From NCBI RefSeq assembly GCF_000003605.2, contig NW_003146281.1, positions 271,377 through 335,376 on the forward strand: DNA of 64,000 nucleotides. Reading direction: 5' to 3'. The position numbers and the translations under genes were made by a program. Shown in pieces: positions 1 to 45,972 of this stretch. The notes under the pieces are model-generated. The model was given only the letters and a program-made list of their open reading frames with translations, had not been told where the DNA came from and did no database searches. Each line of letters starts with the position of its first letter. Positions within the stretch are counted from its first letter, which is position 1. The DNA comes from Saccoglossus kowalevskii (taxonomy: Eukaryota > Hemichordata > Enteropneusta > Harrimaniidae).

Positions 1-1941
1 ACGCGTTAGCATTTTCTCTATAATAAAGTTCAATTATCGTGGCTTCCCGTAGATCGCTTTGATTATTTCTATCTCGCAGTATTCCTACAACTCATGGAAC
101 GACGCGTGTTCATGTATCCCCATTGCCGCTACTGGTCGATCGTTACATAGTATTTACGACTGTTAATATTTTTTTTTTATTTTAAAAATTTAATCATTCT
201 TATTTAACAAAACAGAAATGTGTTACACAAATTCATTGTTCATGGTTCGCGTAATTTCTGTTATCCACAGATATATCATATTTTCACCGCTAGATGCGCC
301 ATCCGTCCATGTACTTGGCACATCAGTACTCAAAAACGTGGTGGAGGGAGGGGGCTGACAACACATTTGAAACGCGATATGGATACTGCTAGCTAAATAC
401 AATAATCGACGCGGTATCATCTTTCTCACAGCGAGGAAAACTGTAGGGATGGGGAACACATTAAGCCGAATACATACATAACCGGAGAATACATGCGGAG
501 TTCGGATGTAAAACCGGCAACTACGATAAAAAACAGCTACTATGGAACGGGTCGATGTTACAATCGCCCTATGGTGGCTTTGCTCAGCTTGCAGAGACAG
601 TGAAAAACTCCGTCATTGAAAGACGGCAGGGAGTACACCAGAAATATCCGGGCTTTTTCCGTTTACTTAATGAAAGTTAATTCGCTTTTCACATCACCGA
701 TGTCTCGCTATAGAAAAGAGCTGAATTCCGTCGGCCATGTCGAATCAGCTTTTAGTTTCACTTGTTTACTGAACCAAATATCGGGTAACAACTAACACTC
801 CTTCAAACCATGTTCAAACTGAATCCATACCGCATTACAGAACCCTGGATACAGGTATAGGTGACATTGACTCGTGTTTTTAGTTATTTCGGTTTTTATT
901 TTGTTTCTCACTTTTACGTCATTGGCTGCTACAGCATCAGCAACAATTGCAACCGGATTTATGTGACTAATCATAAAAAAACATTCAGCTTGCAAATATA
1001 TGGTTCATCTAACATACTCAGTAATCGTAATATTATTTTAACATAAATTTCAAAACTGTAAAACAATTTTTTAGACGGTGTGTCGTTTTTTGATAACAGC
1101 TATGATTGTGTCAAGCTTCTAGTATGAACAGTCATAACAGTTATATTATTCTTCCTATCCAATTTTAATAGTCATTTTTCTCTATTATATTTCTCACTAG
1201 GGGGTCGCATCTAATACCCCCTAAGCCGAGTGTCCAATTCCACTCTCATTACCATTATGATAATCATCACATGAATTCGTTGTAGTGCTTACAGATATTT
1301 CGCAACAGTATTTTTTTTTAAATATAGGTGTTGTGTTTCTGATACGCCTTATCCCATCATTGTGTGAACTTATTTTTACTATTTTCTGAGACGTGTATAT
1401 TGTGTATTATTCCACCTATTTACTAGTATCGTTGTTTTTTTTGGCACTCCAAATTGTCAGATAACTTCTGTAGACAAAAAACAGGCAAATTTAATAATAT
1501 ATAAATAAAAAAACGACAACAAATACAGTGTTGTCAAACTCATTTTAAACTAGATAACATTAAATCATTTCTGACCAATATTTCTTTGTATCGATTCAAT
1601 CCGCACCTGTATAGTACACACTACACTATTGTCTACGTTTTGATTCAGAATGATTTCCGGTTCCGGTACGTCACACAGAGTAAAATGAACGCTTGATTTG
1701 AGTGTTTCTGACATGAATATTGATGTCATTTCCTGTATAAAATACGCCTCGTTATAACATATGATTATGGCGGCACTTTGTTGATACTATAAACTGTCCA
1801 CATTTTTTATAAAAAATAATGTATTGGTGAACTAAATTAGTTGGACTATATTTAGAATTCCAGTTTTATATTCCCTACAATTTTGTATTGAGTTAATGAC
1901 ATTTGATAATAATTGCTCCTTTTTGTATTGTTTATTTGTAG
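1..1941. other. Intron of the + strand ETS gene, no exon recognised
   Basis: This stretch ends in a clear acceptor (T-rich tract then TTTGTAG at 1940-1941). It should be the last intron of the + strand ERG/FLI1-type gene. I looked for the short exon that precedes the ETS exon in this family (DPYQ motif, as found at 32412-32459 for the other copy) and did not find it, so it is probably left of the window. The short open frames here show no family resemblance. Nothing else is recognised. Confidence 0.6.
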
Positions 1942-2462
1942 GTAGCGGACAAATTCAACTTTGGCAATTTCTACTAGAATTATTATCAGACAGCAGTAAC
2001 GCCAATTGCATCACGTGGGAAGGAACGAATGGAGAATTCAAACTCACAGACCCGGATGAAGTTGCACGACGATGGGGAGAACGTAAAAGTAAACCAAACA
2101 TGAATTACGACAAACTGAGCCGAGCTTTACGGTATTACTATGACAAGAACATTATGACCAAAGTACACGGAAAGCGATATGCCTATAAATTCGACTTTGC
2201 TGGACTGGCTCAACAAGTACAGATGCAGTCAGAAGCTAACACATATAAATACCAACCAGATCTATCATATATTTCGGGGTATGGACATGGACATAAATTC
2301 AATTTCATGCCCACTGGCATGCCGTCGTCGTCTACGTCTTTTTTCGCCCCACCAAACTCATATTGGTCATCGCCGACAGCGGGCAACATCTACCAAACCA
2401 GTCACGTGACGCATCATCCACCCAATCATGTATCGTCTAGACTCAGTCCGTACTACAGTTAA
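1942..2462 (+). CDS. ERG: ERG/FLI1-subfamily ETS transcription factor, last coding exon (gene copy 1)
   Basis: This is a DNA-binding transcription factor of the nucleus; ETS proteins bind GGAA/T sites. The exon encodes 173 residues: the ETS domain in the first ~85 (starting [15 protein letters not shown], with the recognition helix [14 protein letters not shown] and the [13 protein letters not shown] end), then an ~85-residue Tyr/Ser/Pro-rich tail with [13 protein letters not shown] and a final YYS. That tail order matches vertebrate ERG and FLI1, which end in a similar SHxxSHLGxYY motif. The exon starts after the acceptor at 1940-1941, so the ATG at 1896 lies in the intron and is not a start. 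Phase 1 entry gives Gly from a G in the preceding exon. The stop is TAA at 2460-2462. All upstream exons are outside the window. Orthology to ERG versus FLI1 cannot be decided here; the subfamily is certain. The ETS core is nearly identical in DNA to the convergent copy at 8724-9241. Confidence 0.95.
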
Positions 2463-3055
2463 GGAGACAATTGACAAACAAACAAACCAGGGGAATAACA
2501 ATTGAAATCACTTTCTCAGGTGAATCGGAGTGACGTCACTTCCCTTCCAGTCTGCAATATATTATTTTACTGTCAAGAACGTTTTGACTGCAAGTACATT
2601 TTTAAAACGTGCAATATTTTAATTAGCATATTAGATCGTTTTATTGAGTGAGAAATATTTATTTTGTAGATGGCGTCTTATTCTGGTGTCATATTTGTCA
2701 CCGAGGTCAAACTGTGAGGTCAACATATTGAGATTAGGTTTCTCGAGAATATGTTCGACGTGTTTCTTCATTGTCTGTACGTAATAATGTGTTAAGCAAC
2801 ACGGTGTATGTTGCATACATTACCCATGATGCATTGCTGTTTATTCACCCGTACATTTCGCCTCACGTGATCTGATAAGACTGCGAGAGTAACAATTAAG
2901 TCCGCCGACCAGCAAAACATTGTATTTATTGAAATCTACTTCTTTTTGTAGGCGTATAAGACAGTTCCATAAACTCGTTTATTTAAGAATAATCGCGAGA
3001 AAGTATGGATATTTTGGATGCATGATGTGAATATTTAAAACTGTGCCGCTAAACA

Positions 3056-3340
3056 TTCTGAATGCACTGTCTCTTTATGGTAAAACTTTCAGAGCGCGCT
3101 GCCCATATATGGTAACAAATTCAGAACGCGTTGTCCTTATATGGTAACAATTTCAGAACGCGTTGTCCAAATATGGTAACAATTTCAGAGCGCGTTGTCC
3201 AAATATGGTAACAATTTCAGAACGCGTTGTCCAAATATGGTAATAATTTCAGAATGCGTTGTCCAAATATGGTAACAACTTCAGAACGCGTTGTCCAAAT
3301 ATGGTAACAATTTCAGAACGCGTTGTCCAAATATGGTAAA
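3056..3340. repeat. 32-bp minisatellite, about 9 copies, in the putative 3' UTR of gene copy 1
   Basis: Units read ATATGGTAACAA then TTTCAGAACGCGTTGTCC, with TCAG recurring every 32 bases (3121, 3153 and onward). The first copies are degenerate and the later ones nearly identical. Several units contain ACGCG. The array lies between the stop codon of copy 1 and a possible polyadenylation signal, so it may be transcribed. It is not a multiple of 3 and has no coding sense. Confidence 0.9.
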
Positions 3341-3404
3341 CGCTCACCGTAACATTAAGTTATAATTTTGTAAAACGTACAATATGCGATTTTTTGAAGT
3401 TGAA

Positions 3405-3410
3405 AATAAA
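3405..3410 (+). promoter_or_regulatory. Possible polyadenylation signal for gene copy 1
   Basis: AATAAA lies about 940 bases after the stop codon, just past the 32-bp repeat array. A second AATAAA is at 4089-4094. Either could end the transcript; such hexamers are common by chance in AT-rich DNA. Confidence 0.3.
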
Positions 3411-4692
3411 TATTATAAATACTTAACATTTTCCTGTTGTGTTGTCTGTTATACGGGTCGTCAGCTTATATTTCGAACATGAACGTGCACAGAGTTGAAA
3501 TTGTGTCCTGGTTTAAAATAGACGCAATTTTAATGAATAACGATATGACAAATATTCTGAACCCTAATTGGCAGAGTGGGTCCACTTCTTTGCAACTTTG
3601 CTTTGTCTGACGAGGAATATAAACATTGTCATATGTCTGTACGTCTAATATCCAGATTTTGGTCCGTCGACACCAAAGCTACACTATCGCACAAGAAGCC
3701 TTTGATGGGAATATTAAAATTAGTTGTTTGCACAATTTTTCTACAATCTCTTTTAATAGTTACCCCCCCCCCCCCAAAGTACCTTCGACTTATGGATTAA
3801 ATGGACATTCTCCATACAGTGTATTCTGCCACCAAAGCAATATTAAATGGAAATTTAATGAAATATCCCGTCGCCAAACAACCTGAAGCTCGGTTCACAG
3901 ACACACATAGAGCTCAGAATCCTACATTCTCCAAATCGAATGAATCTTGGTACATCCCTATTGAATTTGGCGAATTCACAAACAGGCTACGGGTGGACCA
4001 ATTTAGAATTGGATGATGGTTGTAGTGATCCAACCGGTACGCTATCAGTGACGCGACGGGGTGCATTGTGTGCGCTGTGTTCTTCTGAATAAAACAATTC
4101 TCGTTATAATTTCCTGGATTGGCATACTTTTTCATAATTAATATTAGTTTATTACAAACAATTAGGGTATAAATCGTGAACACTATTGTTCTTTTAAATC
4201 AACACGTTTCTTTCAATCATGTATGGTGTGTGTCACGGTAATGTCCCGTAGTTGTTGACTACATATTGTCCCTATTGTCTCGTTCAATCAGAGCGATCAA
4301 ATCATTTAATAAAGAATGGCACAAATCAGTAAATTGTATATTGTTATGGGAATGAGAATTGAGTTCTCACGGATGGTTCTACACGCCTTCATCGTGTAAT
4401 TGTTTGACCAGTCTTAACGTAACCAATCACGCCCACCTGCCATATTCAAACCCGGGCGCATGATAACAGTCAACCTAGCAACCTGACAATCTAGAAATTG
4501 CCACCTTAAAAAATCACAAAATCGATTTTATATATTATTTTTCACAACACCTGTAGCTAATCAAAAGTTTTGATCATTTTGGGTAATTATAGAAAAATAC
4601 ATTTTTGTGCGAATGTAATATTTAACATACATGGTAGGAAACATGTTGTAGCACATTTCCACCAAGTGTAAGTCCAAACTCACTTAATTTAA

Positions 4693-4815
4693 CCTGTTGT
4701 ATGGCTTAATGGTTCTCTGCCCGCCTAACATCAGCGAGATTGTGGTTTTAGCTCCCGTCATGGCTGCATACTTAATAGTAAAAAACAAGTACAGTTGAAA
4801 GGACGTAAAACAGGC
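4693..4815 (+). mobile_element. tRNA-derived SINE-like segment
   Basis: TGGCTTAATGG fits the RNA polymerase III A box. About 40 bases later GGTTTTAGCTCC resembles a weakened B box, as in tRNA-derived SINE heads. It is followed by a GGACGTAAAACAGGCGTAAAAC tail of a kind common in invertebrate SINEs. The boundaries are approximate and no target duplication was established. It is too degenerate to be a tRNA gene. Confidence 0.4.
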
Positions 4816-4903
4816 GTAAAACTGTCGAGTTCGTGTGCTGTTAGTTGTTCAGTTCTCAGTGTATATATACATTACAGCATCCTTGTCACAGCAAGTAGCG
4901 GAA

Positions 4904-5131
4904 TACTGTAGAATACTTTATTTCAGCCGGAATTAATTTTCTCTAAAAAGATTTTTTGGTGTTTTGTATGAAATTTATTTTCACTGATGTTAAATGTAAA
5001 ATCAAAGACATTAGAAAGAGAATGTCTTTGGTAAAATATAGGAAAAAAGGTATAATTGCTGGAGTTTATTTTCACTGAATCATTCCTTCAGCGAAAATTA
5101 ATTCCAAGCGAAAATAAAGTATTTTGCAGTA
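4904..5131. mobile_element. MITE-like element with long terminal inverted repeats (TACTG family)
   Basis: The left end TACTGTAGAATACTTTATTT and the reverse complement of the right end, TACTGCAAAATACTTTATTT, match. The match continues through GGAATTAATTTTC, giving imperfect inverted repeats of about 40 bp around a 228-bp element with no coding capacity. A related element with the same TACTGT end is at 41045-41230. Any TA target duplication is ambiguous because the ends themselves begin and end in TA. Confidence 0.65.
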
Positions 5132-7028
5132 CCGCGGGATGACTGAAATTTACACTTCCATAAAACCACGCCAATCGGAAACTCGTCATATTTTGAAATG
5201 ACTAAAAAAAAATGGAATTTCAGAGACTATGTAGAATACCGTGTCTTCCCCCAACAAGGAGGGTTTGAAGCATGAACACAGTGAATTGGCAAGTATGTAA
5301 TCGACAATTATGATTATTAGATTATGAAATAGAATGGCGATCATACCCATAACTGACAATACAAATCAGAACATCATAGAGTTTATGTATTTATGTTATG
5401 TATTTATGTACACACTATTTATGACATGAGGGAGGGCGTGGGAGATGGGAAGGTACTGCGCCAAACCCAACGATATACAAAATGTCCCTCGAAATATTGA
5501 AGGGAAATTTGATACCGTTCGAATGATTCATTATAACGTTCTCTGTAACTTATGTTGGTGTAAATTTTAAAACGAATGGGCCGCTAAATTTGTTTTATTT
5601 TAAGTTATGCATTAACTTTTTTGAATTAAAAAAAAAAAGCTTGCAAGAGTTCCAACGTTTATGATCGGTGATCTCCTAAGTTTATTTAGTTATTCCAAAA
5701 TAATCATTTGTGTCAAATTTAATTCAAATGAGATTTCTTTGACATCAAAAACCACAGAGTCGTTGATACAGGTAATGAGTAAGAGACAATTTAAAATGAT
5801 ATTACATCGCGACGTCGACGACAACTGCGCGTACATACAAACTAGCCTGGACATGCTCGGATGATAGGGGATATGATCCTCGTCGATATAAAAATACAGT
5901 GAACAATATGGGTAGCCTAGCATGGTCAACATGTGGTCTGAACGGAGTGACATGCCATCGCGCCTGACAGACCACTTTATCGCCATCTTCAGCACCGGCA
6001 TAAACTACTCTAGTGTTTGCATTTTAAGAATGAGTCACGAATACAGTTTGGACTGAATACATAAGCGGCAATCCTCCAGTTATACTGAACATAATTCTTT
6101 GTGTCGAGTTTTGTACGGTACCTATCATAGTTTCGTTTATTTCGTTATATATGTAAATGATTCTCGTGAAATTTTTTTCTGTCAAACGAGAACACGATTG
6201 CAGTCCAATTTGAATTCGTACGTGTACACCTTTTAAAGATGATTATGCCGTTATTTTTGTATTTATAATACTACTAAGTCATTATGATTTTTCATGGAGT
6301 AAGAAGTAAACAGTACATAGACAGCTGGATGTACACATGGGAAACTCTAGACTACATGAAAAGAGGAGTGAAGGGAAACTCGATTGACTGCGTATTACGT
6401 TCATACACAGGTTGAGAGTAAGCGAAGGACACCGGACGCTGGGACCGTACCGTTGTTCGGCGTGCTTATAAATTTTAACTAGAATTATAAGATTATCTGA
6501 TAATAGTTTAACCGAAATACGCGCGTGTCGGAGATCACAACACCACTCGCGTTGCTTAATTGTTTATTTGATTATCATTACGATTCAAAAGAACAATGTC
6601 ATGTAATTGACACAGCCCGGATATTGCGAAAAAAGGTTGTCCGAATAACAAAGAAAAACAGATTTAAAGATTAAATATTAATTGTTTTTAAACAACCGAG
6701 GCTAATTAAATAACATTAAAGTGGGATTTTGACCAAGGATGGTTTACTAAGTGGTGTGTGTTTCCCACGTCATAGATCCGTGCACTGTGTCCACACTTCT
6801 TGCTGACCATGGAATTAATAGTTGTAAAGGACGCATGCGCACACGCATGACTTGGCTTTATGTGCTAGTGATATTACACATTTCTTGGTTGGGGAAAGAT
6901 TTATTTACGGTTGATACCTAAGACATTAACAGAAACTGTCAATTGTACAGCTATATGAAAATAATGTATTAATATTTTATTAGGGCGCGCTCGTCCCGCT
7001 TTGATCGAGCCTGTACGCCGTTTTCGTC

Positions 7029-7070
7029 ATAACGCTGCGGCTATTATAGCCGACTGCTGTTCCGCGTTAT
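7029..7070. repeat. Nested inverted repeat, possible cruciform
   Basis: An outer pair ATAACGC / GCGTTAT encloses a near-perfect inner palindrome, CGGCTAT-T-ATAGCCG (7038-7052), in a locally GC-rich patch within AT-rich DNA. CTGTAC and GTACAG also flank it. It could be a small foldback element or a chance structure. Confidence 0.4.
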
Positions 7071-7473
7071 AAAGTACAGCCAACGGAACGACAGTCACCT
7101 AACCTAATATGAACACGGATGTGAAGGAAACTCTGATACCATCTTCTAACAGATACTAAGTAACCGTTTTATAAAATACGTTATCACACGTAAGATGTTC
7201 TGTGTGGGTTATGCTATATACCGGTTTTTTTTCGCCACACAACACTTTTTTTTCATTGTGTATGATTTTCTGGGGTAGTTTTCACAATATTATAGCTCCA
7301 ATAAACCCAGGAATAAAAAGGTTACATAATTCAAGTTATATGTCGTGTTTCGAGTACGCTGTGCATTTTGGTCACTCTCGAAATGATATTTCTCAACAAC
7401 TTATGTAACTTTCATATCTGTTTATTCTGTGATGAAAATATTTACATTAACAGAAATATAAATAACAAATTCT

Positions 7474-7475
7474 AA

Positions 7476-7538
<63 letters not shown>

Positions 7539-7688
7539 ATNNNNNNNNNNNNNNNNNNNNNNNNNNNNNNNNNNNNNNNNNNNNNNNNNNNNNNNNNNNN
7601 NNNNNNNNNNNNNNNNNNNNNNNNNNNNNNNNNNNNNNNNNNNNNNNNNNNNNNNNNNNNNNNNNNNNNNNNNNNNNNNNNNNNNNNN

Positions 7689-7783
<95 letters not shown>

Positions 7784-7785
7784 AT
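7474..7785. repeat. (TAAA)n microsatellite interrupted by an assembly gap
   Basis: Uninterrupted AAAT tetranucleotide repeats flank a run of N at 7541-7688. The true length of the tract is unknown. Confidence 0.97.
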
Positions 7786-8200
7786 ATTATTATTGTCTTA
7801 TTGTTATTCTGGCTTCAACTTATTTAAAAAGGTAAATTCGAGTACTTATCTACTACTTCCTCCAAAGCTACTACGGTGTTAAAGGTTTCTCACCAAATGG
7901 TGACTCAGTGTAGCCAATGTATGAATAAAAACATGTATAGCAAACTGACATGCAAAGATTGGCAAAACACATCGAGAAAATACAAGATATGTACAATACT
8001 GTTATATAACTATGCATTAACAAATGGATTTGTTTAAATTCCCATTACTTATAAATATAATCAATATGAATTCAAATTGCGTTGACGGTTGTACTTTTTT
8101 GAGATATTATAAAAATAACTGATTGCAACTGACGAACGGCGGTGGTTACCATATCAATAAAATAATCACATTACGAGTTATAAGGACAGGAACAAATTTA

Positions 8201-8298
8201 AAGCGCGGTGGTCGTCGCGCAGCGCGTGTTCGAATTTCATGTAAATAAACAATGTATTTTACACGCGAACAGGAAGCGGCACGACGACTGCCGCCCTT
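8201..8298. mobile_element. Short MITE, AAGSGCGG family, copy 1
   Basis: The left end AAGCGCGGTGGTCGTCGCGC pairs with the right end, whose reverse complement reads AAGGGCGGCAGTCGTCGTGC. The interior (TTCGAATTTCATGTAAATAAA) is shared with the copy at 26522, but this copy lacks about 30 bases of that interior. It is flanked by TA on both sides and has no coding capacity. Confidence 0.7.
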
Positions 8299-8723
8299 TA
8301 AAATGTCACAAATGTCCGGAAGAATAAAGCTGTTCTTCAGTTCTATGGCCTGCAAGCATCGGCGTAATGCTGATACACGTCATTTCAGCCAATCTACGTA
8401 ATTTCAAATACAACACGATAATAAACACAATTTATAACGGAAAACAGACATTTCATGTTATAAATACAAATGTAGCACGTTTCCTATGTACACACCTACG
8501 TCGACTATCCATATAAGGTATGCACACTATCCATATAAGGTATGCGCTACTAGAGAATATGCCTAAATATGGAGTTTAGTATGCCTTAATTGGAGAAGTC
8601 AGTGGTGAATGCACAGACTGGTGTACCCGCGTGTTGGGGGTAAGTCATTCTTGTCCCATGGCAAACAGGGAATTGCTATTGCATGATGGGTGAAACGACA
8701 AAGCTGTTCTCAGGCTGTTTCCA

Positions 8724-9241
8724 TCATCCGTAATATGACCCAAGGTGTGGTGACATGTGACTCGGGTGATGTGTCATGTGACTGCTGGGGTAGATATTTG
8801 CTGCTGCGGACGAGGACCAATACGATGTAGGGTTAGCAAATAAACCCGCGGACGAGGTCGCTATGGGCGTGCTCATAAAATTCAGTTTGGGTGCATGGCT
8901 GTAACTCGAGAGATAGGAATAGTCCGATTGGTACTTGTACGCCGTGGGGTCAGAGTGCATTTGCATTTGTTGAGCCAGTCCAGCAAAGTCATATTTATAG
9001 GCATATCGTTTTCCGTGTACTTTGGTCATAATGTTCTTATCGTAGTAATACCGTAAAGCTCGGCTCAGTTTGTCGTAATTCATGTTTGGTTTACTTTTAC
9101 GTTCTCCCCATCGTCGTGCAACTTCATCCGGGTCTGTGAGTTTGAATTCTCCATTCGTTCCTTCCCACGTGATGCAATTGGCGTTACTGCTGTCTGATAA
9201 TAATTCTAGTAGAAATTGCCAAAGTTGAATTTGTCCACTTC
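8724..9241 (-). CDS. ERG: ERG/FLI1-subfamily ETS transcription factor, last coding exon (gene copy 2)
   Basis: This exon encodes the DNA-binding part of a second ERG/FLI1-type nuclear factor: 172 residues, with the ETS domain first ([15 protein letters not shown], then [14 protein letters not shown] and [13 protein letters not shown]) and then a Tyr/Ser-rich tail with [20 protein letters not shown] and a final GSYYG. The SHMxxHLGSYY end is the family hallmark. The exon begins after a strong acceptor (TTTGATTTTTTAG at 9243-9242) in phase 1, so a G from the exon at 32412-32459 completes the Gly codon. The stop TGA is at 8726-8724. The domain differs from copy 1 by Tyr for Phe near its end, and the tails differ strongly, yet 194 bases of the ETS core are identical. 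It is the 3' end of a gene extending right to at least 49189. Confidence 0.95.
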
Positions 9242-12200
9242 CTAAAAAATCAAACAAATGGGAGAATTATCATAACGTGTCGTGTTATACCGATAATGTT
9301 ATTTTTTTATTGATAACATTTTGTATTTACCACACAATATTAACATAATAATTTACAGAAACAAAAGCGTACACAAAAAAAAATGTTTTGTTTGTGCTAT
9401 TTCAATAATAAAAAAAATTAAAACAATGTTACATTGTTGCCATTGTTATATAAATATTATCACATCGTTGCCAGGCAGATTAGTTAAGCAGAACAATATG
9501 GAAAAGGGCGCGGCAGTTTAAGAATTGTCATGTCATAGTTCAACTTAACCATGCCCGGCCTGCGTGCAATGCTTGGTTGTGGAAATGCAAATATATTATT
9601 TAAAAAAAAAACATATTCGTCAAGTTTACTTCACTGTTATTATTGTATTACCACGCCTGGCAATCGTACCGGATGCACGTGCATGACTTGGATTTTCTTA
9701 CTTTAATTTTGTCACGAAATGGGACTATTCAGTTGGTCTGTTGTCACTTATCCATTGTAATATCACGTGACTTGTTCGATATTCACCATTCCGGCCGCGG
9801 CGATCTTAAAATTAATATTCTTCATCGAACAAAGTTCGGTTGAGCTTTGCTACTTGTTCGCAGATATATATTTAAAACTATAATCTTTTAGAAAATACAG
9901 TAATACAAGAATTCGAATATGCATTATTTCTTTCGTTAATAAAGTGTTAAAGCTGTATTCTATGAAACCATTTTTGTTTTACTTATTTTCTGTACGGTAG
10001 TCAAGGGGAAACAAATAACGAGAATAAGTTTAATTCAAATAATAATAAATTATTACAAAGTCGGAAATAAAGTCGTTGTAATTTATTGGTCAAACGCATT
10101 ACGGCCGGTAAGCATAAACCGTAGAACACGATATAGATGACGGATGGATGAAGATAAACATAAAACGCTTAAACTCTTGAAAATTTATCACCGAGTATCA
10201 ACTGGCTACCTAGACAGGTGCGAATGACAAATGAACATCGTGGTGTTCGAGGTATCCTCGGCAAAATGTCTTGATACGGGGTACCCACTGAACTGTAATA
10301 ACACACCGTTTTATTATTCCAACCGATTATGAGGCGAACACGTATCAAATGCGACTGATGAAGACTGATTTAGGTTACCATGGTGACAAGCCATAACTTA
10401 ATGATCGCCATCTTTCATCGTGTCAACAAATGCGAGGTATGAGATGGATGTCGGAAATGGTGACGGAAATTGAAGAAAGGGTCGACTTGAAATCACCAAG
10501 TGTCATTATTGCTTAAATTTGATTGCTGAATTGCAGACGTTCGTTTTACTGACCCCACTCCTGAACATTGTATAAATAACATTTTGACAGGGTTCTAATT
10601 ACACGAGGCGTCGTCATATTTCCCGGGACGTGGGTTCTGATATATTTCAGAGTGAAAATTTAAATTTTTAAAAAAACTTGTAAATGCACAAGCACAATTC
10701 CACGTGGCAGGTGACACTTCATCCAACTGATATTCTTAATTTTAAGTTACTAACAAAATCTTTACTAATGATAAGTTTAATTGCTTCGATTTCTTTACTG
10801 AATGTGTTGGTTGATGTGAATTCTATTGAATTCGAAACGATTAACTACCCTACTACAACTTACGAAACTTGTCCTGTTTCATTTTGCCACAGATGAAACT
10901 TTCATAGTCGATTGCGATCGTGACAACCAATAGTCGTGACGTCCGTCAGCGGATCAATGGTCGCCTCGCCATTAACAGCGAAGATGGCGACTTATTATTT
11001 GTAGTCATGTAGGGGTGGGCTCTAAGTCGTTGCCGGGTGATGTAATGAACACGTGTCAATAGTCCATAAGATATCAGCCCATCGTTAATTTTTATTTGTA
11101 TTTAAATTATAAAAATAAAGGTTAAATTCATTAAATGCATTTATTCTGTGAATTAGTCGTCGCACTGAAATACAAGGCTTTCAATTACAACATACTATGT
11201 AATTAAAATAATGTCAGATTATTCGTGGGTATACAAATATTTGGTTCGTAATTCAGGTTTTTAAATTAAGCATCAACACCAACGCAAACCGACATCTGCA
11301 TGTATGTGCAATTTTTGACATTACTTCTCTAAGCGAACTCGACTGTCTCGCCATACTAAACGGGTGTAACTCAGAGTGAGAGAGGGGGCAGCACTGAATG
11401 AACAACTCGACAATCAGGTGTATTCATTTGATTCCTTTCCGTCGCATGTAAACGGAAAATGTTCTGGAAATTCTTGAGGAAATTTCAAATTTCTTTTTGT
11501 CAAACAACAGTTATCGGTAACGATCGTGGTGCGTGTAAGAATATATTAGACGAGAAGCTCAGCGATCAAATTGGAGGGGACTCCGAGACGCAAAATTACT
11601 AACACATCTCAATAAAAAGATGACACAGGTTTAGAACGACATATATATAAAAACTAATATTGTCACTCGGTGTGCTGTGTTGCCAATGGAAAGGGTAATT
11701 GGACAAAACGTCGGGTAACACAAAGGGCGAGATGTCAAAAAGACGTTTTATTGATAAACGTGAACTGCGAAAATTAGCTCCAAATAACGGTAAATTACGC
11801 CTGATTAAGGACCGCTTAGAAAAGCAGTACGGAGAGCAGGAAAAGTTAATAAAATCTCATCAAAAACGCATTCACATGAGAAAAAGGTCAAATGGCGAGT
11901 ATTTAGTGAAAGTGTCCTGTATACAAAGGTCGTCTAAAATGGCGTAATTATCGACAACGCTTGTAAAAAAACGTGCATGGCATTTTGTATGTTTTCGTCA
12001 CTCAGTCTATTGGCGTAGATCTGCTTAAACTACGCCGGGATTATGTCGTACGTCATTTATCGCTATTTAAGTTTTAAGGATTTTATCGGACACAATAGTG
12101 AATAAATATATGCGTAAAGTGGATAGGATTTAGGCAGCGTGCAGATGTTTCCCTCATGTACAACATAATAACAAACGACCTCGTCACTGTTAGTGAAGGC

Positions 12201-13583
12201 ACATGGTTTTAACAAGACGGGAAATTGAGGAATACCTGTGTTTTGGTTCTGCACGGCAGTGTCAGTGTGTATATGCTGTTCCATCATGCATACGTGATAC
12301 AAATATTTCGATGTCAAAAGAATGTTTTTGAACGAGGGGATTGCACTTTTCCAAACGGAGTGTTTACATATCTCTATTTATAGAGATGTTCAAGAAAGAC
12401 CAACAAAATGAATATTTCTTTAAAAAAAACATAAATAAAAAAAAAATTTAGACTCGTCGTTACCTATATTTTTATCTGGTATACTGTGTTGGACAAGCTA
12501 AAAATAATTAACGTAACAAAACTGTATCATAGCGCCGGGTCGGTCCCTCGGACCTAACACCCCTCTTTTGCATAATGGCCGATCTTACGTGACTGAAGAG
12601 GAGACAAAAATGAAGGGCACGTCGATTTGACGACAAAATTGGGTGAAAAGAGAGCATCCTTATGTATGGATCGTATTTCTAAAAACGGAAATAATGTCAG
12701 TAACTAGACTAAAAAGTCGTGAAATGCTCATCACGACTTTGCAGTGCCAAACGGGAAATCTTATTTCAACCCGAGTCCAGTAAATGAAATCATGGGAAAT
12801 AACTCAGTGGAATTCAATTTGGTAAGCCGGCAGCAAGTGGTGTTAAATTACGCTGAACACAAATTGTTTTAGTGGAATGTTGTACTTTTAAAAGATGCAT
12901 CCTTTCAGAGGCTGCCTTGGCAACGTGACCGTGGGGCGTCCTCCTGGTCAATGTTGAGGATTTTGGAACGTTGTTGTGTAAAATATAGCAGTAAGGGTAA
13001 GGGTGAACACGCGATCGTCATTACTAAACACATTTAAGTGTTGACGGTGCGTGAACACAGTCTACTATACAGAATCAGATGACAACGAGTAGGAATTTCT
13101 AACAGTCGGAAATTGACGCGCGCTGAGGATCCAACTTGCAGTCACAGACTTCTAATTCTACGCACACTGTACACTTTTCTGTTTATTTATGCAATATGTG
13201 TAAAGACAAATTACTCACGAAATTGTTAAACATAAAAAAATACTAACATAAAGTAGCTTTCTTCCCAGACTCAACCGTCACGCCAAATTCAAATCCAAAG
13301 TTTATCTAAAATTTCAAAATTGGAAATGGGCAGGTGGAACATACTGAAGCGGTCGTTAACCGCTTTTATGTAATATTTGCAGCCAAATATGTTCAAACTT
13401 ACTGATTGTATTAGGCTGAATTTATGTAAATATCAATCTCTTTAAATACGTTTTGTCTTTGTTCGACGTAAGGTGTGATGAGTTCGTTATTTTCTAATTC
13501 TACGCAAATAATCTTTTCCAAATGTGTTATTGATTCGACCCTGACCGGACTTCGCGCCTGAATTGCATCAACGTCACGGTACC

Positions 13584-14050
13584 CCCACACACTCCACAAC
13601 CCCTCTCACACACTCCACAACCCTTCTCACACACTCCACAACCCCTCTCACACACTCCACAACCCCTCTCACACACTCCACAACCCCTCTCACACACCCC
13701 ACAACTCCCCTCTCACACACTCCACAACCCCTCTCACACATTCCACAACCCCTCTCACACACTCCACAACTTCCCTCTCACACACTCCACAACCCCTCTC
13801 ACACACCCCACAACCCCTCTCACACAACCCACAACCCCTCTCACACACTCCACAACCCCTCTCACACACCCCACAACCCCTCTCACACACTCCACAACCC
13901 CTCTCACACACTCCACAACCCCTCTCACACACCCCACAACCCCTCTCACACACCCCAAAACCCCTCTCACACACTCCACAACCCCTCTCACACACTCCAC
14001 AACCCCTCTCACATACCCTCACAACCCCCTCGCATACCCCACCACCCCTA
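13584..14050. repeat. 21-bp minisatellite, about 21 copies
   Basis: The unit is CTCCACAACCCCTCTCACACA with a CCC/CTCC variant. The strand is strongly C-rich, with almost no G on + for about 450 bases. Because 21 is a multiple of 3, several frames stay open and give THSTTPL-type or CERGCGV-type repeats. These are by-products of the array. Confidence 0.95.
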
Positions 14051-17000
14051 CACATAAAAGGTTTCACCCTGGAGTTAAAGAATACTCAGTACAGGTGCAG
14101 AGGGACAACACCATTTTTAGATGCTCGTTTTCATGCTAATTTTTGTACTTTTAGCTTCGAGGTATGACTATTTGAGACAAAGATCAGTTGCGTGTTTAAT
14201 CCAATAAACGTGGAGGAAAGACAATCCATAAAACTTTCCTCATCTCCATCAATACATAATTCGATTATGTTGACGTGAAAGGGGATCCAAGCGTACCACC
14301 TAGCTTACTGTCAACTGATATACATGAGAACTGGTTCTTGTCACGGTTAAGGCATACACTTAATATGTATGTACACCATTAATAATTGTATATTTTAAGA
14401 AATATACCTAGGCGTATACCATGTGATATTGGTATATCTTGTTTCGTGTAAGTCTGTACCAGGAGACCGCAAAGCGAGATTTTTTAGCTATAAGTTATAG
14501 TGGGTGTATGTTTTCATCGATTTCCGGCGTGAAGCAGTCCGATTTGCATAATAAAAACACAACTTCATCTCATATTTTTACCAATAATATGAAAATAAAT
14601 TTCTATTGCAATATAGGCCGCAAAATATTGAAAAAGGCTTGAAAATGTCAGTGATGACGTATTGAATATTACTGACACATTACTAACTAATCACGGCATA
14701 GTCAGAAAACCTTTCGAACAATGATGTGCCGTCGTCTGGTTGGTTAGCGTGTAAAACTCACCGAAAATATTGCAAATCGGCGAAAATTAAATTATTTGGC
14801 GATTTCATTCAAGACTGGCATTCATCCGTGAAAATGGTAGAAAAAAACATAATAATAACACACTTTTTAAAATATACAAAATGTACAAAAATTAAAAGAT
14901 TATTTGACGTACATCTCACAGTAGTGTGTAGATTTGAATTGGAATAACAATACTAAATTAAACACATCCCAGAAATTACAGTAGCATTACAGATATTATT
15001 GAAGTTTTATATCTGAACGGCGGACAGAGGTGTTCTGAGTCACCATACAGCGCACCGAAAGGCTGCCCTAAATAGGATTAAGTGTAAAATTAAAATTGCA
15101 GATGATGATTCGTTTTTAACATGCACATACATATGAGTGGGACGTACAGCAGAGTTAAGGGACCATTCGCTTCTATAAATTGGTCTGAAATATGATATAC
15201 ATTGTAGAACAGCGTAACATCAGACCCTCTTAGACGCTAATTCAATCAAGGCAATAAAAGCTACATTCGGATCTGGTTCCTTTGATCAAAACACTGGGGT
15301 TAACTGCTATACGGAAGCTAACCAACTAAAGCCAGCCGCCATTGCCATCGGACAGACACATTCACAGAGGCGGAAAGAGCTAATATTCATGGAGTTCCAT
15401 CGGTTATTATAAATAGGGAAGTTCTCATATCGTTTACAATTTCATGGGAAATTAGCGGATATTGTCTTAGTTTTGCTCATTTTCCTCTTAATATTCGTTT
15501 TGTATTTAATGTCAGCTGCTAGTAACCTGGTAGCGGTAGTTGCTACAGTAAGCTCATCTCCTTCACGTTCTGCTCCCCTCTAAACGTGAAAATTCGAAAT
15601 CAATCCAGAAACATGAATAGTCTGATTTGTAATGATGCAATAAACACAAACAATCGTTCACGACAGATTACTGTTTTGTTGAACGCCATACACGTCAGAT
15701 GGTGCAACATTTTGTGCGTTCGTTTGTCTATAGTTGAATTTTAGACCAAATACACTTTTCATAGTCTACATTTATCAATATTTTAAAATAAAATAATAGA
15801 ATCAATTATATGCATTTGTACTTGAAGGAGTAAAGGCTGTAAACACCTAATTTCGCGTTAAAAGTAAGTCGTTGTCATAGTGTATAGAAAAAAGACATAT
15901 TTGTGCAGAATTATTGCCATTATATCAATATTTTTTTAGTATAATCATCCCCACATTAATCGTCGATACTTACAACGATATTTTGGCAATTTACAAATTT
16001 TCTGAGAAACGCATGTCCTTCTATAGGCAGCCCGAGTACAAACTCCAAGAATCGATGCAATAAATACAATAAAAATGAACAAAAAAACATGCCCGACGTC
16101 AGGAACCAATTAATCACGCAACAGTGTGAGAAACGTGGAAGAAAAAGTAAACACGTTCCGCCGGTCACGTGACAATGAACTATTTGCAAAGCGATATGCA
16201 AGGTCCGTGCTAAGAATTAAATATTGCAATTGATTATGCATTCCCAACCACTCACGCTCTTTGCTCTCTCACTAAAACAGATTTTAAATCATGCTTATAC
16301 AAACGACTTCAGTTTGTTTTGTCCACGTCAAATTGATCGACGATTTCACGGGGAGCCTGCCTATTTTATTAGGGGCTCGTTGGATTTCAATAAACGGGAC
16401 ATTTCTAAAGAGGCTAGTGTTTGAATTTTTTTTAAATCGATGATGATGCTTTGATTTTAATTATATTGTCCCTCTACATATGAAAAAAACCCTTCACTTG
16501 TTAACCTGTATTCACACACAATTGGGCGATTCGTTTTAATTTACCGTGTCCGCTATATTTTCCTGCCTGTACGGTGGGGTTTAAATCAATTTGGGGTGTG
16601 GAAATTACGCACGTTTTTATAACAAAAGCAATCAACGCGACTGATTCGCTAGTAGATTGTAGGTTAATTGATCGATAATCGGGTTTTGAGCTAATCTTTA
16701 CTGCATTTTGAAAAATAAGAAAACATAAAAAAAAAACGAAAAACTGCGATTCGGTGTGTTTCAGTAGGTTTGGATAGTAAATTAGTATTTCCATAAATGA
16801 TATAGTGCTCGTGTTCAACCATTTATCGTCTCCTTGATCACCCCCCTCTGTGAGGCGAGCTTCGGTTTCGTGTACAGTCGTTATTCACTTTTATTAAAAT
16901 AACCGGGGTTTTCATGTCTGCACGATTCGCATGTATTCCAGCGTCATTTTCTATGAATTAGATGAAATGCAGAGTAGTTTAACGTAGTGCTGGCAAAAAT

Positions 17001-17274
17001 TAACATTACATTGTTTCTAGAAATAAGTAAACAACGAGACTAGAATTATTGATCATTAAACAGGATAAAAAAGTAAATTATATAACACTATATGCCAACG
17101 TTTGGTTGGGTTTGTTCGTGGAGACTCCAAGTCGCACATGCATTTAGAGAAACCCTTCGATATTTTAATTTCTTGTTACTGTGAAACTATAAAAAAAATA
17201 ACACGACATGTCTTTAAATTACTGAAATTGCGGGACGGTAAGCTGATATTATTGTCTTTACGAAAAATTGGTTC

Positions 17275-17330
17275 AGTCCGAGCGGCTCCGCTGGATGTTC
17301 TTTCCAGGTGCGAGTTTGAGTGGTTGAAAA
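17275..17330 (+). mobile_element. tRNA-like SINE head, weak
   Basis: GTCCGAGCGGCTCCGC resembles the A-box side of a Leu/Ser-type tRNA (GCCGAGCGG), and GCGAGTTTGAGTGG lies where a B box would be. There is no complete tRNA fold. Treat it as a degenerate SINE head or a chance match. Confidence 0.25.
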
Positions 17331-20300
17331 ATTCACAGAAATACATACTTGTAAATTTCCATTTTTACAAGAACTGTGATTTGGAGTGGAGAAAATAGCA
17401 TAGCGACAACTATTCTCATTACGTGCAAATAAAATAGCACACGACTTAATGACTGGTAATTGAACATTGCAAATAAAATATCATTATGTCGAAACCAGAG
17501 CAGGATGACACGACATTTTTGACCGATTGCGGGTTAAAGTTACAACTATTTAGTGTTAAAATGTATGATGTCATAATGTAAATGCCAACAATTATGTACC
17601 AGCCAGCGAACAAGTAATTCATTTCACCCATGGGACCATTGCTATCTAACCCTTATCTCTGTACTAAATTTAATTAATTCCTCAGTCCCGTCTTTACAAT
17701 GTATTTAAGCACTAAAGCGAAAAATGTTATCCAACTCAGTCGGGACGTGGAACGTTTTCTCGGCGAACTCGTTCAAGTACCAGGGGACGGTTTTTGTTGC
17801 ATAGACATTGAATCGAATTAGTCGTTTAGCAAGAACAACAGCGTTTTATCGAATCGTTCTCGATTTCACAGTAAAGTGGCAAACTGCGGAGCTATGAAGT
17901 GGCACCACTATCTAACCAGGCGAAAAGCCGGACTCGAGCGGCGGCTATGGCAAGCCATTGTACACGAAACGTGACCCAGTAATTGAATAGCGCCATGTTT
18001 TCGGAAATATGTTAAAATGCTATCAGTTGAGGAAATGAACTAGGGCAGCAGTTGTTGTAGTAGACCCTTGACTTTTCTATAATTTCATTCAGTGATGAAA
18101 GAGCCACCGATTCTGGTTCAGAAATATAAATCGTTTCCATACAATTTTAAATTATAAGCACGCGGAAATTAAAATTAACGCAATTTTGTCTTTAAATTCA
18201 ACGTAAACCAAGATAAATTTGAGTACAAAATGATTATAAAATGATTATAAAATAATTTTGGCGGGAGTGAGTGTGGTAATAAAAGTCGATGATAAGAGAA
18301 ATATGAAATACCTCGCGATTGTGAGAGCATCGAACACAGCATATCAGGAACACATCGAGCTAAAACATAATAGAAAAAAAATTTAAAATATTTTTCATTG
18401 TTACATTGATATTTCTTCCAATGATACAAGATGAAACTGAAAACAGTCAAGCTCCCCTTTTAAGCATCTTTTTTTTTCAAAATGGGGTAACGGATATTGG
18501 TCTGCGGAGAGACTACCAATTCACTAAACAAACCATGCACGCTCACAATTAATAAGTCGGTATAACATTACATTTTTTTATAAAGTTACTCTTTTATCAT
18601 TGTCTCCAGAGGGCGTGGTTTGTGAAGTCAGGCGTCACCGTATTGTTATTGAGAGTGGCCTTGATCGTGAACGCCATAATGGAATATTGGGATATGATAT
18701 CATCTACGGCGCTACATGCCAACTCTCATAGGCATGTAACAGAAGTTGGGTTCAGATTTCCAGTCGATCACTGACTCGGGCGGATTTGATGGGTAGTCAT
18801 AATTAAGGTCATGTGCATGTTTTGACTTTTAGTCTTTAGCACAAACAGTCAAACAAAGGCAATTCTGCGCTGACAGTCTTACTATATACATGGGATGTTA
18901 CATGATTCGTACCAACGAACCACCCCATTTATTTCACTGAAAATCTTCGAAACTTTGAACATTTCAACAAAACATGTCCGACTTGTATGTCAAACTGAAA
19001 CCTGAATTTAACCAAGCCTTTTATTGAGTCGAGCGAGACTTCGATGAAAAAACTAGATGATTTTTAAATCGCGGGCTCTAACATACAAATATCAACATCT
19101 AGTGAGTACTCGTTTTGGGAAACGTTTCCACGGTTTCCAGAAAAGTAAGAAACCAATTGTGTCAAAGTTGGTTTGTACTTGACTCACTGACTCAGTGTCA
19201 AGTAGCCCTACATTTTAAGTCGTTACATTACCGTCAATTTGGGATTTAAGAGCCTGCAATGCTGAACAACGTTTACAATGTCAGTGAACTTTGACCCTGT
19301 TCACCTATTATTTTTAAATAACTACTATATGTTAGGATACGTCAAAATTACAAATGTAAATTAAATTTTAAAAACTGTAACATATTACTGTTCAGTACAA
19401 TAGACCATTTTCCGCACACTGCGAGAATTACGCGCAATGCGTGAAATCGAACGTAAAAACAGGACAAACAAAGGTCATAGCGTCGTAGTCGCGTCAAACA
19501 TCGCGTGGGATTCGACAAACGCGAAAGTATTTCGGGGACATTTCCATGCTTAATAATGTGCTGTCCACATTTGATAATAGGCAATTTCGATTAAGTAAGG
19601 GTATTCGGAAGCAATATTCCTCTGTCGAAGATCGGCCGGTCAATGTAAGCTACGAAATAAAATTTCTAGTTCAAAATCAAATCGTTTGATTTTTGCGGCA
19701 GACGTTCGACGCGCGTCTTTCATGCATCTCGCGAGATCTCGCAATTGTACGGAAAATCACCTATTGGTGAACTCACCGTGCGTCACAGATAATGATTTTA
19801 TAACGCAAATTGTGCACGGGTATTTTTCACAGAAAATACAATTGAATTCATTCAATTTAACTGGTTTGGTTGGATAGCAGACGATGTGGGATATTGCTGA
19901 CGTGTGAGCAGAAGTAATGGCAAAGACAGAGATCGCTCATGCATAGTTCCGTGATCAGTGCTACAACTACTGAGTAAAGCAGAGAATAATCTTAGCTGAG
20001 CGGACAGATAATTACCTGCAAATGTGAATACACATTTCAGAAATAGACGCGGGAACGACACGCAGACGACAGGCGAAGATTGGCCAAGAAATTGGTTCCG
20101 GCTACAAGTTCGCTGACATGTTTTAAAGCGGCAAAGCTTTTATACTGTATCCGGTTGTTAGTCAATATAGAAATGTGAATGTAACTAACGTTGTTGGTAT
20201 TTTCCCCTAAAAGCCTTTAAAATGCGAAATTGGGCGGATTTCACCAAGTTGAAAATGACGTCGACGAAGTTGACCCTATTGTTGCCACCGTTTGAATTCC

Positions 20301-24574: not shown

Positions 24575-26203
24575 GGTACGCGACCATTCCATGTGAACAC
24601 AGGTCTGGCTGTTGCCTCTATGGACGGTACCATTCCATGTGAATCATAGGTCTGACTGTTGCCACTATGAGCGGTATCATTTCATGTGAATAACAGGTTT
24701 GACTGTTGCTTCTGGACAGTAGCATTTCATGTGAATCATAGGTCTGGCTGTTGCCTCTGGGCAGTAGCATTTCATGTGAATCATAGGTCTGACTGTTGCC
24801 TCTATGGGCGGTACCATTCCATGTGAACACAGGTCTGACTGTTGCCTCTATGGGCGGTACCATTCCATGTGAACACAGGTCTGACTGTTGCCTCTATGGG
24901 CGGTATCATTCCATGTGAATAACAGGTCTGACTGTTGCCTCTATGAGCGGTATCATTTCATGTGCATCATTGGTCTGACTGTTGCCTCTATGGGCGGTAC
25001 CATTCCATGTGAACACAGGTCTGACTGTTGCCTCTATGGGCGGTACCATTCCATGTGAACACAGGTCTAACTGTTGCCTCTATGGGCGGTACCATTTCAT
25101 GTGAATCATAGGTCTGACTGTTGCCTCTATGGGCGGTACCATTCCATGTGAACACAGGTCTGACTGTTGCCTCTATGGGCGGTACCATTCCATGTGAATC
25201 ATAGGTCTGACTGTTGCCTCTATGGGCGGTACCATTCCATGTGAATCATAGGTCTGGCTGTTGCCATTATGGGCAGTAGCATTTCATGTGAACACAGGTC
25301 TGACTTTTGCCTCTATGAGCGGTATCATTCCATGTGAACACAGGTCTGGCTGTTGCCTCTATGGGCGGTATCATTCCATGTGAATCATAGGTCTGACTGT
25401 TGCCTCTATGGGCGGTACCATTCCATGTGAATAACAGGTATGGCTGTTGCCTCTATGGGCGGTACCATTCCATGTGAATCACAGGTCTGGCTGTTGCCAT
25501 TATGGGCAGTAGCATTTCATGTGAATCACAGGTATGGCTGTTGCCTCTATGGGCGGTACCATTCCATGTGAATCACAGGTATGGCTGTTGCCTCTATGGG
25601 CGGTACCATTCCATGTGAATCACAGGTCTGGCTGTTGTCATTATGGGCAGTAGCATTTCATGTGAATCACAGGTATGGCTGTTGCCTCTATGAGCAGTAT
25701 CATTCCATGTGAATAACAGGTCTGACTGTTGCCTCTATGAGCGGTATCATTTCATGTGAATCATAGGTCTGACTGTTGCCTCTATGGGCGGTACCATTCC
25801 ATGTGAACACAGGTCTGACTGTTGCCTCTATGGGCGGTACCATTCCATGTGAACACAGGTCTGACTGTTGCCTCTATGGGCGGTACCATTTCATGTGAAT
25901 CATAGGTCTGACTGTTGCCTCTATGGTCGGTGCCATTCCATGTGAACACAGGTCTGACTGTTGCCTCTATGGGCGGTACCATTCCATGTGAATCATAGGT
26001 CTGACTGTTGCCTCTATGGGCGGTACCATATTTCATGTGAACACATGTCTGGCTGTTGCCTCTATGGGCGGTACCATTCCATGTGAATCACAGGTCTGGC
26101 TGTTGCCATTATGGGCAGTAGCATTTCATGTGAACACAGGTCTGACTTTTGCCTCTATGGGCGGTATCATTTCATGTGAACACAGGTCTGACTATTGCCT
26201 CTA
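24575..26203. repeat. 46-47-bp minisatellite, about 35 copies
   Basis: The unit contains GGCGGTACCATTCCATGTGA, then ACACAGGTCTGACTG and TTGCCTCTATG. GGGCGG recurs 46 bases apart (for example 24852 and 24898). A one-base-longer variant carries AATCATAGG or AATAACAGG in place of AACACAGG, and another carries GGGCAGTAGCATTTCATG. The variants alternate in blocks. Open frames inside it are by-products. Confidence 0.95.
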
Positions 26204-27772: not shown

Positions 27773-29364
27773 CCTATTGTGTATATCCATATGATACCTG
27801 TTGTGTATATCCATGCGATATCTATTGTGTATATTCATGCGATACCTATTGTGTATATCCATGCGATACCTATTGTGTATATCAAAGCGATACCTATTGT
27901 GTATATCCATGCGATACCTATTGTGTATATCAAAGCGATACCTATTGTGTATACCAAAGCGATACCTATTGTGTATATCCATGTGATACCCATTGTGTAT
28001 ATCCATATGATACCTATTGTGTATATCCATGCGATACCTATTGTGTATATCCATGCGATACCTATTGTGTATATCCATGCGATACCTATTGTGTATATCC
28101 ATGCGATACCTATTGTGTATATCAAAGCGATACCTATTGTGTATATCCATGCGATACCTATTGTGTATATCAAAGCGATACCTATTGTGTATACCAAAGC
28201 AATACCTATTGTGTATATCCATGCGATACATATTGTGTATATCAATGTGATACCTTGTGTATATCCATGCGATACCTGTTGTGTATATCCATGTGATACC
28301 TTGTGTATATCCACGCGATACCTATTGTGTATATCCATGCGATACCTATTGTGTATATCCAAGCGATACCTATTGTGTATATCCATGNNNNNNNNNNNNN
28401 NNNNNNNNNNNNNNNNNNNNNNNNNNNNNNNNNNNNNAAAGCAATACTATTGTGTATATCATGCGATACATATTGTGTATATCAATGTGATACTTGTGTA
28501 TATCCATGCGATACCTGTTGTGTATATCCATGTGATACTTGTGTATATCCACGCGATACTATTGTGTATATCCATGCGATACTATTGTGTATATCCAAGC
28601 GATACCTATTGTGTATATCCATGCGATACTATTGTGTATATCCATGCGATACTATTGTGTATATCAAAGCGATACCTATTGTATATACCAAAGCAATACC
28701 TATTGTGTATATCCATGCGATACCTATTGTGTATATCAATGTGATATCTTGTGTATATCCATGCGATACCTATTGTGTATATCCATGTGATACCTTGTGT
28801 ATATCCATGCGATACCTATTGTGTATATTAATGTGATACCTTGTGTATATCCATGCGATATCTATTGTGTATATCAAAGCGATACCTATTGTGTATACCA
28901 AAGCGATACCTATTGTGTATATCCATGCGATACCTATTGTGTATATCAATGTGATACCTATTGTGTATATCAAAGCGATAACTATTGTGTATACCAAAGC
29001 GATACCTATTGTGTATATCCATGTGATACCTATTGTGTATATCCATGCGATACTTATTGTGTATATCCATGCGATACCTATTGTGTATATCAAAGCGATA
29101 CCTATTGCGTATATCCATGCGATACCTATTGTGTATACCAAAGCGATACATATTGTGTATATCCATGCGATACCCATTGTGTATATCCATGTGATACCTA
29201 TTGTGTATATCCATGTGATACCTTGTGTATATCCATGCGATACCTATTGCGTATATCCATGCGATACCCATTGTGTATATCCATGCGATACCTATTGTGT
29301 ATATCAAAGCGATACCTATTGTGTATATCCATGCGATACCTATTGTATATATCCGCGCGATACA
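27773..29364. repeat. 24-bp minisatellite, about 65 copies, with an assembly gap
   Basis: The unit is TATTGTGTATATCC then ATGCGATACC. Variants CAAAGCG, ACCAAAGC and CAATGTG recur in blocks, giving higher-order units (for example the same four-unit order at about 27883 and 28123, 240 bases apart). A 50-base run of N lies at 28388-28437. Since 24 is a multiple of 3, frames stay open on both strands (IPIVYIHA-type peptides), but these are not genes. Confidence 0.97.
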
Positions 29365-32411: not shown

Positions 32412-32459
32412 CTGACGAAGCTAGTCTGCTACTTGCCGCGCCGAACATTTGATATGGAT
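32412..32459 (-). CDS. ERG: ERG/FLI1-type gene copy 2, exon just before the ETS exon (DPYQ exon)
   Basis: This is a 48-nt exon, phase 1 at both ends. It has a good acceptor (CTATTATTGTATTTTTCAG) and a consensus donor (CAG|GTGAGT). With the G of the previous exon it encodes DPYQMFGAASSRLASS, and the trailing G joins GA of the ETS exon to give G-S-G-Q. In vertebrate ERG and FLI1 the same place reads [20 protein letters not shown], so both position and sequence support it. It is 23 kb upstream of the ETS exon and is short enough to be missed by open-frame searches. Confidence 0.93.
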
Positions 32460-32739
32460 CTGAAAAATACAATAATAGAAGGACATGAGAAACATATTAC
32501 CCAGGTTTTACGGAAACAATATTTTTATCACAGCTGTTTCATAATCCGGGTAAAATGCTATGAGTTGCTTTGCCGCGCCGTGTTCGACACTGGTCCATGC
32601 ATGTGACGCATTATGCAGTCCGTGTAAAAAAATGGTTTTTATATTCACAGATTTTAGAAATAAGCATCACGACGTAAAATACCGTTACCTTTCGGCACCT
32701 TGAAAGCGAGAAAAACGAAACGCGATGACAACAACTTAC

Positions 32740-33470
32740 TAAATGCAATGAAACCAAACTACGAAACGCACTGAAACCAAACTACGAAACGCATTGCAAT
32801 CAAACAACGAAACGTACTGAAACCAAACTACGAAACGCACTGAAATCAAACTACGAAACACACTAAAATCAAACTACGAAACGCACTGAAATCAAACTAC
32901 GAAACGCAATGAAATCAAACTACGAAACGCACTGAAATCAAACTACGAAACGGACTGAAATCAAACTACAAAACGCACTGAAATCAAACTACGAAACGCA
33001 CTGAAATCAAACTACGAAGCGCACTGAAATCAAACTACGAAACGCACTGAAACCAAACTACCAAACGCACTGAAATCAAACTACAAAACGCACTGAAACC
33101 AAACTACGAAACGCACTGAAATCAAACTACGAAACGCATTGCAATCAAACTACCAAACGCACTGAAATCAAACTACAAAACGCACTGAAATCAAACTACA
33201 AAACGCACTGAAATCAAACTACTAAACGCACTGAAATCAAACTACAAAACGCAATGAAACCAAACTACGAAACGCACTGAAATCAAACTACGAAACGCAT
33301 TGCAATCAAACTACCAAACGCACTGAAATCAAACTACAAAACGCACTGAAATCAAACTACAAAACGCACTGAAATCAAACTACGAAACGCACTGAAACCA
33401 AACTACCAAATGCACTGAAATCAAACTACAAAACGCACTGAAATCAAACTACGAAACGCACTGAAACAAA
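32740..33470. repeat. 23-bp minisatellite, about 32 copies
   Basis: The unit is AAATCAAACTACGAAACGC then ACTG, with variants AAACC, ACAAAAC and ACCAAAC. Blocks of variants repeat in the same order (for example around 33120 and 33290), which suggests duplication of several units at a time. The array starts about 280 bases upstream of the DPYQ exon on the - strand, next to its acceptor side. Confidence 0.95.
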
Positions 33471-45434: not shown

Positions 45435-45972
45435 CCGGCGTGTTGTATTTCAGGTTTCCAGAATGTTGTATTTCAGGTTTCCAGAGTGTTGTATTTCAGG
45501 TTTCCAGAGTGTTGTATTTCAGGTTTCCGAAGTGTTGTATTTCATGCTTCTAGAGTGTTGTATTTCATGTTTCCGAAGTGTTGTATTTCATATTTCCAGA
45601 GTGTTGTATTTCATATTTCAAAAGTGTTGTATTTCAGGTTTCCAGAGTGTTGTATTTCATATTTCAAAAGTGTTGTATTTCAGGTTTCCGGCGTGTTGTA
45701 TTTCAGGTTTCCAAAGTGTTGTATTTCATGCTTATACGTTCTAGAGTGTTGTATTTTATGTTTCCGAAGTGTTGTATTTCAGGTTACTAGAGTGTTGTAT
45801 TTCAGGTTTCCGAAGTGTTGTATTTCAGGTTTCCAGAGTGTTGTAGTTCATATTTCCAGAATGTTGTATTTCATGTTTCAAAAGTGTTGTATTTCAGGTT
45901 TCCAGAGTGATGTATTTCATGTTTCCAAAGTGTTGTATTTCTTGCTTCCATTGCGACATATTTCATGTTTTC
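45435..45972. repeat. 23-bp minisatellite, about 23 copies
   Basis: The unit is GTGTTGTATTTCA then GGTTTCCAGA, with variants CATATTTC and CATGCTTC. Most units are 23 bp, one carries an insertion near 45735, and the last units are degenerate. Open frames here (CCISGFQSVVF-type peptides) are by-products of the array. Confidence 0.95.

Follow-up and report, generated by a model that had tools for sequence, protein, structure and literature searches.

In the hemichordate Saccoglossus kowalevskii, the last coding exons of three linked genes, predicted to be of the ERG type, share 194 identical bases at the start of their ETS DNA-binding domain, and the silent sites of their C-terminal tails are saturated. 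Ectopic gene conversion, confined to a stretch that selection on the protein keeps alike, is very probably the best explanation of this identity. Two of the exons (copies A and B) lie in the window, by which we mean the whole stretch of 64,000 nucleotides that was analysed (contig NW_003146281.1, positions 271,377 to 335,376 of the forward strand, or C3684:271377-335376 in the coordinates used below), and the third (copy C) lies further along the same contig. The initial annotation of the window had noted the identity of A and B, and had attributed it to conversion between inverted arms separated by about 6.5 kb. Conversion remains the favoured reading, but the picture of two arms was incomplete, since there are three copies and the longest exact tract, of 244 bases, is shared by B and C, which are direct copies 85 kb apart.

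Three ETS exons with an identical block

The features that define the three copies are the following (window positions unless the contig is given):
1942..2462, + strand: copy A, last coding exon of an ERG-type gene, with ETS domain and C-terminal tail (Pfam Ets match)
1940-1941, + strand: splice acceptor AG of copy A
2460-2462, + strand: stop codon TAA of copy A
1947..2140, + strand: identical block in A (same in B and C), 194 bases
8724..9241, - strand: copy B, last coding exon of a second ERG-type gene, with ETS domain and C-terminal tail (Pfam Ets match)
just past 9241, - strand: splice acceptor AG of copy B
8726-8724, - strand: stop codon TGA of copy B
9043..9236, - strand: identical block in B (same in A and C); the exact match to C extends 50 bases, to 8993
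C3684:365459-365652, - strand: identical block in copy C, from a whole-genome search with the block

The exons of A and B are arranged tail-to-tail, and the inverted-repeat search, which covered window bases 1-20000, found a repeat of 485 nt that takes in the similarity between them (84% complementary, with 6,344 nt separating the arms). When the whole genome (572 Mb in 4,830 contigs) was searched with the block, the block was recovered three times without a mismatch, and one further, weaker match reached 72%. Copy C lies 30 kb past the window end and has the same orientation as B. A Pfam Ets search of the genome gave 11 matches, namely A, B, C, a gene at C3684:495152 and seven on other contigs; two of these seven, both on C605, seem to be exons of a single gene. 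Among solved protein chains, FLI1 and ERG were the nearest to copy A, the only copy compared (E values 6.1e-63 for FLI1, 1.8e-62 for ERG, 2.7e-53 for FEV and 4.9e-36 for ETS1), and all three exons are assigned predicted ETS domains of the ERG/FLI type.

Between 1947-2140 (+) and 9236-9043 (-), 194/194 bases are identical, as the initial annotation had stated, and codons 1-64 show zero differences in A-B, A-C and B-C. The exact tracts measure 194 bases for A-B, 197 for A-C and 244 for B-C. Their borders are sharp. On the 5' side, the border of every pair lies only a few bases from the splice acceptor, at which the genes start to resemble one another anyway; on the 3' side, the tracts end after ETS codon 64 in the pairs with A and early in codon 82 in B-C. 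The silent changes that had been named on the two flanks of the A-B block (AGC/AGT and TAT GAC/TAC GAT) are present. On the 3' side of the block, three silent changes (codons 65, 66 and 76) set A apart from B and C, and bases private to single copies occur only a few nucleotides away from it. Since B and C, the copies that share the longest tract, are in direct orientation, conversion would not depend on inverted arms.

These borders bear on the reliability of the assembly. It could be supposed that exons differing at silent sites were collapsed to one consensus that was then placed three times: gaps are numerous in the assembly, with 39,804 N among the 184 kb that were read, and a block of about 200 bases comes close to the length of a short read. 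However, all three exons are clear of N runs of 10 or more, the tract lengths vary by pair, and the private bases stand close to the block. The unequal tracts and the lack of gaps at the exons make such a collapse less likely, and we regard it as quite improbable.

Divergence inside and outside the block

Upstream of each copy, a search with the human ERG protein found a separate exon of 48 nt that encodes DPYQxFGxxSSRLA and matches that query:
C3684:265767-265814, + strand: 48-nt exon of A
window 32412-32459, - strand: 48-nt exon of B, preceding its ETS exon (DPYQMFGAASSRLASS)
C3684:370416-370463, - strand: 48-nt exon of C

Codons were compared only where the copies encode the same, degenerate amino acid. 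In the block, 60/60 of these codons are identical in each pair. Between codons 65 and 86, the identical codons number 17/20 (A-B), 15/20 (A-C) and 17/19 (B-C), and in the tails 20/44, 19/46 and 19/45, respectively; in the 48-nt exon, 5 (A-B), 7 (A-C) and 6 (B-C) of 13 agree. Three-way identity is found at 60/60 degenerate codons in the block, 14/19 in codons 65-86 and 8/31 in the tails. The longest silently identical runs comprise 60, 61 and 77 codons. When the same-amino-acid degenerate codons of the exon were permuted, runs of this length were reached in 0/20,000 shuffles for every pair, the longest run in any shuffle being 43 codons against the 60 observed for A-B. A count of silent sites over codons 2-65 (39.3 sites, a slice that does not coincide exactly with the block) gave no silent change for B-C and one for each pair with A.

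From codon 87 on, the proportion of differing silent sites (pS) reaches 0.75 for A-B, 0.88 for A-C and 0.81 for B-C, with a nonsynonymous divergence (dN) of about 0.3. The tails are thus saturated at silent sites, and their proteins remain under constraint. Past codon 90, the informative codons back no pairing (BC 11, AC 11, AB 9), as is expected of old copies. We also compared the oriented neighbourhoods of the copies (14.3, 28.0 and 13.5 kb, plus strand) by blastn. All pairs matched in the ETS exon; A-C and B-C also matched in the 48-nt exon, and the other matches spanned at most 53 bases (best E 5e-5). Thus, neither the alignment nor blastn of the neighbourhoods revealed clear similarity among A, B and C in the introns or the downstream DNA.

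The low tail and intron divergence that a recent duplication of one gene into three would leave was looked for and not seen. The copies are linked on one contig and their core is identical, as such a duplication would have it, but the tails are saturated, the upstream exon has diverged and the introns and 3' flanks are without clear similarity, so that this reading has practically no probability left. Old paralogues with a silently identical island in saturated surroundings exclude a simple recent duplication and favour ectopic gene conversion; silent identity flanked by diverged sequence in old paralogues is a feature of concerted evolution.

Origin of the silent identity

The other ETS genes of the genome indicate how far the domain itself fixes silent sites. 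The eight ETS genes compared, copy A and seven others, form 28 pairs, in which 302/703 degenerate codons were identical over the same positions as the block (43%), and the highest pair reached 57%. Three loci were left out of this comparison, namely the other two ERG copies and a locus that duplicates another (L018, L019 and L027; L026 and L027 overlap and yield the same exon). The ETS domain thus does not itself fix its silent sites, there is no general silent constraint in the ETS genes of this genome, and purifying selection on the protein is insufficient for the silent identity, as had been argued from the window. If codons were drawn twice from local codon usage, the draws would coincide at all 64 codons with a probability of about 10^-26.5. 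Codon bias was rejected as a cause: the block contains five leucine codons (TTA, CTA, CTT, CTC and CTG) and other mixed choices, and the ETS genes agree at 43%. An RNA element was likewise rejected, the block having a z of +1.69, with 189/200 shuffles folding at least as well. No Rfam family matched anywhere in the window, and no tRNA was found in it.

Selection could also act on the DNA itself, if an exonic enhancer, splicing signals or RNA structure formed a second code by which the silent sites of three genes are fixed. The block starts at the start of the exon and sits in the DNA-binding domain, and enhancer activity of coding exons is known from developmental genes. Such a code would have to fix all 60 degenerate codons in spite of unrelated flanks, at positions where the ETS genes of the genome agree at 43%; the block is not RNA-structured, and this reading offers no reason why identity should end at codons that are specific to each pair. 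We hold it to be quite unlikely.

We thus return to ectopic gene conversion. The three linked ERG-type genes would stem from old duplications, and selection on the protein would keep their ETS DNA-binding domains alike, so that the first part of the last exon would be the sole long stretch alike enough for homologous pairing. Ectopic gene conversion, probably in the course of double-strand-break repair, would then transfer this stretch between the genes and wipe out silent differences. The tract borders would lie where they do because introns, 3' flanks, 48-nt exon and tails have diverged beyond pairing. The island would thereby sustain itself, identity being maintained by conversion and convertibility by identity. 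We infer the recombination step, its repetition, its donor and its dates; homogenising three copies would take at least two transfers. As a variant, the template could have been a spliced cDNA instead of a genomic copy, since the tract starts a few bases past the splice acceptor. However, a cDNA would include the 48-nt exon as well, and this exon has not been homogenised; moreover, a genomic template yields the same border at the acceptor because the introns share no clear similarity. We judge this variant very unlikely.

Several observations weigh against conversion. Identity halts at the splice acceptor with no intron sequence in common. Carson and Scherer excluded selection by checking for shared intron sequence (PMC2720389); in that work this check serves as a filter against purifying selection, not as a definition of gene conversion. 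A and B agree against C at six codons between 84 and 90, but a test for a mosaic (B and C against A, then A and B against C) was not significant, its longest run of 6 being matched by 1,097/20,000 shuffles. The GC content at third codon positions is 0.36-0.38 in the block, below the 0.46-0.57 of the tails, and thus gives no sign of GC-biased conversion. Finally, the comparison is confined to paralogues of one genome, and no orthologue from a related species was confirmed in the viral and genome contig collections searched.

The three genes, their surroundings and comparable cases

Two further exons were recovered for gene C:
C3684:399188-398781, - strand: long N-terminal exon, the sole match in the genome search
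C3684:392739-392527, - strand: PNT (pointed) exon, from a PNT search of the genome

The genome search gave no recognisable N-terminal exon for A or B, and none of the 8 PNT matches in the genome lies beside either gene, where gaps could conceal one. Two gaps are large enough to hold exons, one of 5.6 kb upstream of A and one of 11.4 kb directly past the window end, so there is room for undetected exons of both genes; the latter, a run of N at C3684:335377-346811, may conceal upstream exons of gene B. A and B may therefore be short ERG genes or genes with exons hidden in gaps, and B is perhaps an alternative end of gene C. In its full form, the last possibility makes B and C alternative last-exon pairs of one transcription unit, with a single PNT-bearing N-terminal half and two ETS ends, and A an inverted third cassette. 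The presence of N-terminal and PNT exons only at C fits this arrangement, and fits equally well short genes that each have their own first exons, or genes some of whose exons have fallen into gaps; we consider the arrangement rather unlikely. If it were true, conversion would hold the DNA-binding end constant and leave interchangeable tails free to evolve.

Many minisatellite arrays lie in and around the large intron of gene B, with listed periods of 21 to 93 bases and up to 67 copies:
window 3076-3339, 13586-14049, 24583-26203, 27773-29363, 32715-33470: arrays, first part
window 45440-45970, 57029-57412, 60350-60582, 62645-63404, 63457-64000: arrays, second part

Beyond the window, the matches listed include two repeats of about 660 bases in inverted orientation, 84% identical to each other and possibly a transposon; the first lies upstream of gene A (C3684:240811-241468), the second between B and C (C3684:351273-351896). 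The further ETS gene of the contig (C3684:495152-495391, + strand), with a PNT match at 493501, is, from its sequence, apparently of the ETS1/2 type. Vertebrates have linked ERG-ETS2 and FLI1-ETS1 pairs, and an ETS1/2-type gene on the ERG contig recalls this linkage.

Conversion has been described before in linked genes for developmental transcription factors, within the part that encodes the DNA-binding region, and the distinctive features here are the three participants and both orientations. The closest parallel is the Dlx pair of Capitella teleta (PMC3199776), whose tail-to-tail genes encode diverged proteins and show 100% nucleotide identity, silent sites included, in part of the DNA-binding domain; the main tract is 150 bp, and the GC content of the tracts is not different from that of the remainder. 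Unlike the three ETS genes, these are two homeobox genes about 18 kb apart, the tract enters an intron and related species were compared. Hexapod engrailed and invected (cited in PMC3199776) are also linked paralogous developmental transcription factors with reported gene conversion, but are two homeobox genes. Conversion has been suggested as well for amphioxus Pax3/7a and Pax3/7b (PMC6010424), with identical DNA-binding domains and diverged linkers and C-terminus; there, two genes are involved, and the 100% identity is that of amino acids, the nucleotides being very strongly conserved. ERG is the largest ETS subfamily in molluscs, with tandem pairs in three bivalves (PMC10664356), but the term 'gene conversion' is absent from the text of that paper. 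In the argonaut genome, possible conversion concerns reflectin and tyrosinase clusters, not transcription factors (PMC9635652). Our literature search, mostly at the level of titles and abstracts, found no case of such conversion in ETS genes. Mammalian gene pairs are reported to have been under conversion for >100 million years (PMC2720389).

The locus thus appears to hold a conversion island, apparently maintained by selection on the protein, among three old ETS paralogues in both orientations and over distances of 7 to 92 kb. Trees built on the ETS domain only would make such genes seem very young, and the locus offers a compact natural test of the amount of homology that conversion needs for its persistence.

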